Assembly: GCA_003220225.1 (NCBI GenBank)
Contig: QHRU01000036.1
Span: 1-64,000, forward strand
Reading direction: 5' to 3'
DNA length: 64,000 nt
Origin: Candidatus Rokuibacteriota bacterium
GTDB lineage: Bacteria; Methylomirabilota; Methylomirabilia; Rokubacteriales; CSP1-6
Position 1 is the stretch's first letter; every line of letters starts with the position of its first letter. The notes beneath the pieces were generated by a model, which saw only the letters and a list, made by a program, of their open reading frames with translations, was not told where the DNA came from and did not search any database. Positions 5,104-7,959 of the stretch are shown piece by piece. The translations under genes and the position numbers were made by a program.

Positions 5104-7959
5104 TCAGGGCAGCAGCGCCTCGAGGGCCTCGGTCACCGTGGTCACGCCACGGACCCTCAGCGGCGCCGAGCGAAGCTCGGCGGCCCCGCTCTTGGGCACG
5201 AGGGCCGCACGAAACCCGAGTTGGGCGGCGCAGCGCAGCCGCGACTCGAGGCCCGCCACCGCGCGCACCTCGCCGGTGAGCCCGACCTCGCCCAGCACCA
5301 CGACGTCGGCCGGCAGCGGGCGCTCCATGTAGGACGACGCCGCGGCGAGGACGATCGCGAGGTCCGCCGCGGGCTCGACGACGCGGCCGCCGCCCGCGAC
5401 GTTGACGAAGACGTCCTGGTTGCCGATCGGCAGCTGCGCGCGCTTTTCCAGCACGGCGAGCAGCAGGCAGACGCGGTTGTAGTCGGCGCCCAGCACGGTG
5501 CGGCGCGGCGTGCCGAACGAGGCGCGCGCGACGAGCGCCTGCAGCTCCAGGAGCATCGGCCGCGTGCCCTCGAGGCTGGCCACCACCGCCGAGCCCGGCG
5601 CGTCGACCGGGCGCTCGGAGAGGAAGAAGCCGGACGGGTTCGCCACCTCGACGAGCCCGCGCTCGGCCATCTCGAAGACGCCGATCTCGTTGGTGGAGCC
5701 GAAGCGGTTCTTCACCGCGCGCAGCACGCGGTACGCGTGGTGCTGCTCGCCCTCGAAGTAGAGCACGGTGTCGACCAGGTGCTCGAGCACGCGCGGGCCG
5801 GCGATCGCGCCGTCCTTCGTGACGTGGCCGACGAGGAAGGTCGCGAGGCCGCGTCCCTTGGCCTGCGTCATGAGGCGCGCCGCGCACTCGCGCACCTGGG
5901 CGACCGAGCCGGGCGCCGACTCGAGGTCGGGCAGGAACACCGTCTGGATGGAGTCCACGATCAGCGCCTGCGGCTTGACGTCGTCGAGCGCGGCCTGCAC
6001 GGCGATGAGATCCGTCTCCGCCCACAGCAGGAGCCCGTCGCCGGCGATGCCGAGACGGTCGGCGCGCATCTTGACCTGGGCCGCGGACTCCTCGGCGGAG
6101 ACGTAGAGCACGGGTGGACGCGTTTTCCCGAGCGCGCGCGCGGCCTGAAGCAGTAACGTGGAGTTGTGAATAATGAGGTCGTTGGCGACGAAACTTGGCT
6201 CGCCAGCGACCGTGAGATCGAAGACTGGCGCTTCTCCGGCCGGACGCACGTCGACGACTTCGTCCCACCAGACGTCCCCGAGCCCGAGCGCCTCGAGCAT
6301 TGGATCACGCAGGGTATGCGTCAACGCAGCGACTGTGCGTCGGCAGAGCGGACGGTCGTGACGCCTGTTCAGAATGATGACTCCCGACTCTCGACGCAGT
6401 CCTGCGAAGGTCAGAGGCTCTGCGGCACGCCGCACTTGCGCCCAGAACGCGCCACCCGTCGGAACAGTATCCATGCCGGTCGATGGCGTTGTGGCGGGTG
6501 GCATCTCGCGTATCGTGTCGCATGCCTTCTCGCGACCGATGATCCCGATCTCGTCGAGAAACGCGGTCACCGCGGCCGGTCCGAACATCTGGAGCTCATA
6601 CGCGCGGTACGGCTTGCCATTCACGACCTGATGCTTCGTTCGCAACCTCGTCACCAGGCCGAACCTCAGCAGCAGATGCTGGACGTCGGCTGCCAGTCGT
6701 TCGCTGATGGTGCTGTACGACACGCCAGGCACCCCAGCCCTGTTGACGTACACCGACCCATCGCAGCTGAACAGCGTCCTCAAGAACACCACCATGGTTT
6801 CGCGAGGCAGCCTGAAAATTGCGGCCGGCACGCGCTTGCTCGCGGCCCGTGTGAAGCGAACGCCGTGTGATTCGAGGAAATCGGCGATCGGCGTCCTGGC
6901 GGCGGCCCGGTCTCGAGCGGCTGGGGCGAGGTCATCCAAAGCGACCGAGGCGGCCATCGCGAGACGTTTCAATGCGCCCCGTGAGGGAACCGCCTCGGCG
7001 CGCCGCCAGACGTTCAGAAGCGCGAACGAAACTCCCGAGCGCCGTGCCCATTCTTGCCAGCTGATCCCGAGCGCGCGACGCGTGGCATGAAGTGTCGTGG
7101 CCAGTTCTCGGCGAGCGCTGACACGGTCGTTGGCGTCATGACGAGTGACGAAGCGATACTGGCGAGCCGCGTTTCCCGGCTTGTCGTATGCGACAAGCCG
7201 CATTTCGAAGGCGTCGGCAATCGCCTTGAGGTCTTCTTCGACACCGGGCAGCGCGCTTGTCACGTCGATCGCAGACTGGGCGGATCCGTCCGAGAGGATG
7301 TACGCGATCAGTTTGATCGCTTCAGGGCTCATGGCCTCCTGCCCGAAGTAAGGCAGTGCGCGAGCCGACGCGATCCGCGCTCCGCAGGTCAGACGACCGG
7401 CCTCCCGCCACCCCTTCTCAGTGAGGAGAGGATGGTCCGGTGTGCAGCGCAGCCTCCGCCCCAACCGCGTAGTGACATCGATGACTGGACGGATGCCTCG
7501 CTCGTGAAAGACCTGAACGGACGATGGGTGAAGAAGCAGCGAATTCTCGTTGATGGAGAGCACCGATGCTCGGCGATCGCGTAGCGCCGTGATCGGAAGG
7601 TAATCTCCTGTCTCCGGGTCAAAGACTCGGGTGTCACCCGTGACGCATTTGCCGCAGCCAGGCTCCCCGCCGAGCAGCACGAGCGAGCCGCGCACGACGC
7701 CACCGCCGAGCACGCGGTCGAGCTCGCCGATGCCCGTCGGCACGCGGTCACCGGCCTCGAGGACGACGTCCTTGAGCGGCTGTGGGCGGCTCGACGACGG
7801 AGCGCCGGGGCGACGACTCGCGGTGCGCGCCTCGGAGCGCTCCTCCACCAGCTGCACGTACGCGCCGCCGCCGCGCAGACAATCGGGACACGTGCCGGGC
7901 TTGGGGCTGGCGAAGCCGCACTCCTGGCAGCGGTAGACCGAGGTCGCGCGCGGACTCAC
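5104..7959 (-). CDS. radA: DNA repair protein RadA (Sms) interrupted by an intein
   Basis: Branch-migration ATPase for recombinational repair. The host protein has an N-terminal zinc ribbon (CQEC, CPDC), a RecA-like ATPase core, the RadA signature KNRFGS and a Lon-like C-terminal domain (NVAGGG). The Walker A motif is split: GEPGCGK is residues 98-104 and its continuation STLLLQ resumes at residue 600, with an intein of 495 aa between them. Removal leaves 456 aa, the normal RadA length. The start is GTG, overlapping the mlaD stop as GTGA. Activity requires protein splicing, because Walker A is otherwise broken. Confidence 0.95.
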   Translation of the reverse strand: MSPRATSVYRCQECGFASPKPGTCPDCLRGGGAYVQLVEERSEARTASRRPGAPSSSRPQPLKDVVLEAGDRVPTGIGELDRVLGGGVVRGSLVLLGGEPGCGKCVTGDTRVFDPETGDYLPITALRDRRASVLSINENSLLLHPSSVQVFHERGIRPVIDVTTRLGRRLRCTPDHPLLTEKGWREAGRLTCGARIASARALPYFGQEAMSPEAIKLIAYILSDGSAQSAIDVTSALPGVEEDLKAIADAFEMRLVAYDKPGNAARQYRFVTRHDANDRVSARRELATTLHATRRALGISWQEWARRSGVSFALLNVWRRAEAVPSRGALKRLAMAASVALDDLAPAARDRAAARTPIADFLESHGVRFTRAASKRVPAAIFRLPRETMVVFLRTLFSCDGSVYVNRAGVPGVSYSTISERLAADVQHLLLRFGLVTRLRTKHQVVNGKPYRAYELQMFGPAAVTAFLDEIGIIGREKACDTIREMPPATTPSTGMDTVPTGGAFWAQVRRAAEPLTFAGLRRESGVIILNRRHDRPLCRRTVAALTHTLRDPMLEALGLGDVWWDEVVDVRPAGEAPVFDLTVAGEPSFVANDLIIHNSTLLLQAARALGKTRPPVLYVSAEESAAQVKMRADRLGIAGDGLLLWAETDLIAVQAALDDVKPQALIVDSIQTVFLPDLESAPGSVAQVRECAARLMTQAKGRGLATFLVGHVTKDGAIAGPRVLEHLVDTVLYFEGEQHHAYRVLRAVKNRFGSTNEIGVFEMAERGLVEVANPSGFFLSERPVDAPGSAVVASLEGTRPMLLELQALVARASFGTPRRTVLGADYNRVCLLLAVLEKRAQLPIGNQDVFVNVAGGGRVVEPAADLAIVLAAASSYMERPLPADVVVLGEVGLTGEVRAVAGLESRLRCAAQLGFRAALVPKSGAAELRSAPLRVRGVTTVTEALEALLP
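6163..7647 (-). mobile_element. RadA intein with LAGLIDADG homing endonuclease
   Basis: A 495-residue intein (RadA residues 105-599). Splicing blocks are complete: it begins CVTGDTRVFD (block A nucleophile Cys), has CTPDHPLLT (block B with TxxH), and ends VFDLTVAGEPSFVANDLIIHN in two parts: block F (VFDLTVAGEPSFVAND) and block G (LIIHN), followed by extein Ser. Two LAGLIDADG-type blocks are present, LIAYILSDGS and FLRTLFSCDGS, each with its catalytic Asp, so the endonuclease may be active. Between them lies an XRE-like helix-turn-helix (nt 6925-7089). GC content falls visibly here compared with the flanking radA. Confidence 0.95.

Follow-up and report, generated by a model that had tools for sequence, protein, structure and literature searches.

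Results

The radA gene and its insert

What occupies the Walker A motif of this radA gene, and does its presence there place a DNA repair helicase under a post-translational switch? The gene lies at positions 5104-7959 on the minus strand of the window (the whole 64,000-nt stretch of Candidatus Rokuibacteriota contig QHRU01000036.1 that was analysed), and all features described below lie on that strand. It has a GTG start and, with its stop codon included, encodes a radA/sms precursor of 951 aa in a frame with no internal stop. The exteins matched the RadA/Sms family (TIGR00416) with 536 bits against a cut-off of 403, in two stretches on either side of an insert. The N-extein (7648-7959, 104 aa) holds a C4 zinc motif (CQEC..CPDC) and the first half of the Walker A motif, ending in GGEPGCGK. 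The C-extein (5107-6162, 352 aa), which covers TIGR00416 profile positions 102-454, starts with the Walker A Ser at position +1 (STLLLQ) and carries the KNRFG motif and a Lon-like domain, so that the zinc motif, GEPGCGK/S and KNRFG, all marks of RadA/Sms, can be read in the host sequence.

A sequence-only reading of this DNA had placed an intein at the Lys/Ser bond of the Walker A motif (GEPGCGK/STLLLQ) and had expected a RadA of 456 aa and about 48 kDa upon its removal. We confirmed the insertion to the base (6163-7647; 1485 nt, 495 aa), directly after Lys104, and computed masses of 102 kDa for the precursor, 54.5 kDa for the intein and 47.9 kDa for the 456-aa mature RadA. That reading had named a second intact radA as a finding that would speak against it. 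We found none in the genome, a draft of 167 contigs that is 97% complete, where the remaining TIGR00416 matches reached at most 39 bits. By eye, cysS, ispF, ispD and PIN-domain-like frames lie downstream of radA and an MCE/MlaD-like frame lies upstream, an ordinary housekeeping setting that does not have the look of a mobile island. Elsewhere in the window, positions 371-842 hold a cluster of four tRNA genes (Thr-ggt, Gly-tcc, Tyr-gta and Thr-tgt).

Anatomy of the intein

Profile searches, alignments to PDB sequences and an AlphaFold model agreed on the nature of the insert. Pfam matched it to Intein_splicing (4e-16) and LAGLIDADG_3 (2e-16), and NCBIfam placed intein_Nterm on residues 1-76 and intein_Cterm on residues 474-495. 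The N-terminal splicing region (7360-7647, residues 1-96; TIGR01445 and PDB alignments) opens block A with Cys1 and contains block B, CTPDH, at residues 68-72 (about 7432-7446), while the C-terminal splicing region (6163-6279, residues 457-495; TIGR01443) contains blocks F (VFDLTV) and G (LIIHN). The complete set of splicing blocks reported from the sequence (Cys1, TPDH, terminal HN and +1 Ser) was recovered in full, as Cys1, C68-T69-P-D-H72, VFDLTV, H494-N495 and Ser+1. Cys1 and the block B residues T69 and H72 are invariant among the aligned RadA inteins, and 0 matches to the junction pattern are expected by chance within the window.

The endonuclease region begins with a first LAGLIDADG helix, LIAYILSDG (7285-7326, residues 108-121), which was placed by alignment and corresponds to a modelled helix at residues 108-120. 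The second LAGLIDADG half (6544-6792, residues 286-368; PF14528, 2e-16) contains LRTLFSCDG. Nested in the endonuclease is a putative helix-turn-helix domain (6931-7107, residues about 181-239), for which the evidence was an HTH_3 match with an E value of 0.005 that is below the gathering threshold, a match to an RstR model (2e-5) and a run of modelled helices. All nine complete RadA inteins in the clade described below have this region, as do 10 of 11 DnaB Walker A inteins; it was absent from the DnaB inteins at another site and the dCTP-deaminase-like inteins that we compared. The AlphaFold model of the insert, built with six aligned inteins, had a pLDDT of 85 and a pTM of 0.80. In Foldseek, its best solved matches were inteins with homing endonucleases (TliVMA, PI-PfuI and PI-SceI; E values of 1e-14 to 1e-17) and the RecA and DnaB mini-inteins, and DnaE inteins were also matched, which supports a Hint fold. 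Sequence and modelled fold identify the insert, at the K/S site of RadA, as a class 1 intein of full length whose LAGLIDADG homing endonuclease looks intact.

After translation, such an intein would splice in cis through Cys1, the block B Thr and His, Asn495 and the Walker A Ser (+1). Splicing would release the intein and the mature RadA, and the P-loop would be whole only once the exteins were ligated.

Same-site inteins in other genomes

The earlier reading had proposed a search of bacterial RadA proteins for insertions at the same position, and in the genomes that we searched the intein lineage of the window recurred there in 12 more. A degenerate junction pattern (the Walker A Lys of RadA and then the start of an intein) was run over 84,980 species and returned 13 stretches. 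Eleven are RadA genes with an intein at the identical K/S position; the other two (L052 and L056) are chance matches and not RadA. The lineage of the window intein accounts for 10 of the 11 (L047-L051, L053-L055, L057 and L059), with 44-78% identity over the parts compared, and sampled genomes supplied two more members (G258 and G1440), for a total of 13 carriers including the window. Reading of the pattern-hit genomes in full gave seven complete precursors of this lineage.

The carriers belong to Candidatus Rokuibacteriota, Chloroflexota (Ktedonobacteria and Anaerolineae), Armatimonadetes, the CSP1-3/ANGP1 group and Candidatus Uhrbacteria, and thus span five phyla; in trees, their RadA inteins formed a single clade (support 100/100). 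The lineage was found in 3 of 95 Methylomirabilota/Rokubacteria genomes and 4 of 400 Chloroflexota genomes, and in 2/43, 1/291, 1/380 and 2/298 genomes of other samples (the last being one class), all of these samples including the very genomes they were drawn around. Because the same intein occupies the same spot in about a dozen species of five phyla, it is better described as a rare travelling parasite than as a one-off.

The remaining pattern match, in Anaerolineae bacterium RH21 (G102; L058/L128), is an intein of 409 aa that lacks the helix-turn-helix domain and occupies the identical RadA Walker A site. Because this intein is unrelated to the window lineage, and was kept outside its clade, at least two invasions of the RadA site have taken place.

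The acidic residues of the endonuclease motifs are intact in eight of the nine complete copies of the lineage and lost in one. In this copy, from Anaerolineales SJ819 (G103; L124/L172), both LAGLIDADG motifs are mutated (YILMEG and LFTGGG) and the splicing residues are intact, so that it is probably a dead endonuclease inside an intein that still splices. Loss of the endonuclease in this manner fits the prediction of the homing cycle.

Mobility, divergence and base composition

Two congeners of the window species bear on how the intein reached this gene. One (G008) has an uninterrupted RadA, and thus an empty site; in the other (G009) the intein is present and is cut by a contig end. Extein dS was 0.25-0.34 between the window and G008 and 0.50-0.56 between the window and G009, whereas intein dS between the window and G009 was 1.53 (5-95% range 1.11-2.87), about three times the extein value, a contrast that may be inflated since the extreme extein GC3 lowers apparent extein dS. 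Because the window exteins are nearer to G008, while the intein is common with G009 and is more diverged, separate arrivals or replacement are favoured over a single inheritance. In the intein tree, the window and G009 copies group together (100/100) with that of G036 next (94/91), so descent with loss inside the family is also possible. Between the window and G009, dN/dS was 0.11 for the N half of the intein; for the C-extein it was 0.08, and both values indicate purifying selection.

GC3 of the window intein is 72%, versus 88-96% in its exteins. Low GC was considered as proof of recent arrival and is weakened as such, because all of the RadA inteins measured have GC3 below that of their exteins. 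We also compared the 32 codons beside the junction, which in the window lie within about 50 nt of 6163 and 7647, with those further away. GC3 was 0.78 versus 0.96 in the window, 0.81 versus 0.90 in G009, and 0.97 versus 0.97 in the empty G008. This drop at the junction is suggestive, although not conclusive, of a modest trace of co-conversion. It is tempered by some intein-less relatives that show the same drop, such as the family member L029, whose empty site has a junction-side GC3 of 0.75, perhaps the scar of a past insertion and loss.

No phage or plasmid carrier of the RadA-intein allele was found in IMG/VR or in the phage and plasmid records searched. The single junction-pattern match in IMG/VR fell within a frame of 17 codons and was rejected as chance. 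Viral relatives found by alignment were only inteins of about 25-35% identity, and the phage and plasmid records gave at most 41% identity, over short parts.

The scattered distribution, the intact endonuclease, the purifying selection and the empty congener together argue for a mobile element that is kept by homing. The endonuclease would cut intein-less radA at the P-loop codons, and repair of the break would copy the intein in. Homing combined with horizontal transfer would produce a rare, single-site presence across unrelated phyla. We conclude that the insert is very probably a mobile homing intein, a new P-loop allele of a known kind.

Splicing and RadA function

The P-loop Lys is needed for RadA activity in two bacteria. 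The K108R variant of Escherichia coli RadA has no ATPase activity and is dominant negative (PMC4786428), and the K101A variant of Streptococcus pneumoniae RadA is without helicase activity (PMC5512693). Because the intein splits the Walker A motif, Lys mutants are inactive and there is no second radA, the ATPase of RadA should need splicing in the window species, and the unspliced precursor would be without ATPase and helicase activity. The earlier claim that RadA function is conditional on splicing is supported to this extent, as a prediction. The same conditionality is common to any intein in a P-loop and is therefore not in itself evidence of regulation.

It had further been proposed that redox conditions or stress acting on Cys1 could gate DNA repair. 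The sequence did not support this as it was proposed. We saw no regulatory sign beyond what any Cys1 intein offers, with the exception of an extein Cys at position -3, which is itself not conserved. This residue (Cys102; codon at 7654-7656) is a candidate partner of Cys1 in a redox trap, in which oxidation would form a Cys102(-3)-Cys1 disulfide that blocks the first splicing step and reduction would undo it, so that RadA would be made only under reducing conditions. Its position is exactly that of the published Cys-3/Cys1 trap, described for an engineered Ssp DnaE intein and the native Pyrococcus abyssi MoaA intein (PMC3922620, PMC10663303), and the trapped DnaE structure 3nzm was among the fold matches of the intein model. 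However, position -3 was Ile in 18, Val in nine, Ala in two and Cys in one of 30 family RadAs, the single Cys being that of the window species, and the other 11 RadA-intein hosts that were read have Ile (10) or Ala (1). The evidence for Cys-3 comes from one draft assembly. The bacterial cytoplasm is, moreover, normally reducing.

We rejected a redox gate conserved across the family, given that Cys-3 is found in the window species only. Another possible partner of Cys1, the invariant Cys68 just ahead of the block B Thr, was also set aside; all 12 RadA inteins that include the region have this residue, and so do 2 of 11 DnaB relatives. Because a conserved switch would be expected to keep Cys-3, selected redox gating is unlikely. 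A redox switch is thus an improbable account of this locus: gating is possible in the window species itself and unlikely as the reason that the intein has persisted.

Damage-responsive splicing is about equally improbable. Here, binding of single-stranded DNA by the exteins would speed splicing of the precursor and supply a repair helicase on demand. The P-loop intein of Pyrococcus horikoshii RadA is a model for such a response, since splicing of the archaeal RadA intein depends on ssDNA and temperature (PMC10663303, PMC5790916), and bacterial RadA also binds ssDNA (PMC4786428). However, archaeal RadA is the orthologue of Rad51/RecA and not of RadA/Sms, its mini-intein did not appear among the sequence relatives of the window intein, and no feature of the window sequence points to ssDNA-responsive splicing. 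In its general form, the idea that a homing intein has become a post-translational switch, with a Cys-3/Cys1 trap or ssDNA-triggered release holding the split-P-loop RadA inactive until conditions favour recombination repair, has in our judgement only a small chance of being correct. If it were true, it would amount to an intein-controlled branch-migration helicase in bacteria.

We regard it as very unlikely that the intein is decayed, with defective splicing and a cell that is effectively RadA-negative. The His that is common in block F is missing here (GEPSF), and some bacteria can do without radA. However, the His position is variable in relatives as well (ANF, PANF and HNF), every nucleophile and every block B and G residue is still in place, and the intein N half and the C-extein are under purifying selection. 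An assembly artefact that joined radA to an unrelated intein gene might be feared in a draft of so many contigs and is excluded in practice, since the identical arrangement recurs in independent assemblies from five phyla, including that of a congener.

Discussion

Relatives of the RadA intein

Insertion in the P-loop at the point where the invariant Lys meets a nucleophilic Thr has been called "classic" and common in bacteria and archaea (PMC5050341). Outside RadA, the closest relatives of the window intein are class 1 DnaB Walker A inteins, which align end to end at 30-34% identity and interrupt a K/T bond. These inteins, from Anaerolineae and other Chloroflexota, CSP1-3 and Patescibacteria, are co-linear with the RadA inteins and resemble them in their K/S or K/T position within a homologous hexameric helicase, in their length of about 495 aa and in their LAGLIDADG endonuclease with a helix-turn-helix region; they differ in having DnaB as the host gene and in forming a clade separate from the RadA inteins. 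In trees, the RadA and DnaB Walker A inteins fell on one side of a branch and the other sampled inteins on the other, with a support (88/84) that is not decisive. Because the window intein and the DnaB inteins at the equivalent position have a common ancestry, a past jump between the P-loops of RadA and of DnaB, a paralogous RecA-fold helicase, is likely.

Other known systems are more distant. Site b of mycobacterial DnaB is the same Walker A loop, but the intein characterised there, Mycobacterium smegmatis DnaBi1, belongs to class 3 and is a mini-intein that lacks an endonuclease (PMC6195587). The RadA inteins of P. horikoshii and Thermococcus sibiricus also lie in the P-loop of a RecA-fold repair ATPase, and disrupt the ATPase of the precursor (PMC6195587, PMC5790916), but they are mini-inteins without an endonuclease in a Rad51 orthologue, and no archaeal RadA intein chain appeared among the PDB sequence matches up to an E value of 1. 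The mycobacterial RecA intein (PI-MtuI) and cyanobacterial DnaB inteins have splicing domains that are 29-37% identical to ours and mostly within 1-2 Å, in other host genes and at other insertion sites. PI-PfuI, PI-SceI and TliVMA have the same two-domain fold of splicing and LAGLIDADG domains (query TM-score about 0.45-0.59), at 9-14% sequence identity and in other host genes.

We noticed further inteins during this work. The window genome contains at least six more (five contigs; L064-L068; host names by eye). Two are in DnaB, one of them class-3-like in the Walker A loop (GK/AQPLDA...HN/T) and the other a mini-intein at LRE/C...HN/S; further hosts are DnaE, an error-prone DnaE2-like polymerase, a MoxR-type ATPase (DEVDR/C...HN/C) and a DUF362-like protein. 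With a class 1 intein in RadA and a class-3-like intein in DnaB, two intein classes split P-loops in one cell. Three other genomes (G045, G054 and G055; L071-L073) have inteins in a dCTP-deaminase-like protein (CLGK/C...HN/STYARCG) that are near-identical in two of them. In the CSP1-3 group, the intein query matched DnaB-like frames of three genomes (G525, G526 and G532; L165-L167) in at least two places per frame, a sign that each may contain several inteins.

Significance for RadA

The literature searched yielded no earlier report of an intein in bacterial RadA/Sms, and a review that names RadA places it among strand-exchange proteins (PMC5874633). Because the main census paper was outside this search, we make no claim to priority. 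Elements of this kind are well known; what appears to be new is the host gene, together with an allele that crosses phyla. RadA/Sms of bacteria, a recombination helicase found almost universally, thereby joins the genes parasitised at the "classic" K/S site of the P-loop. The pair of RadA and DnaB inteins offers a natural test of a homing endonuclease crossing between conserved motifs of paralogous proteins, and the natural Cys-3 of the window species provides a cheap test case for a redox trap arising in a bacterial repair protein.
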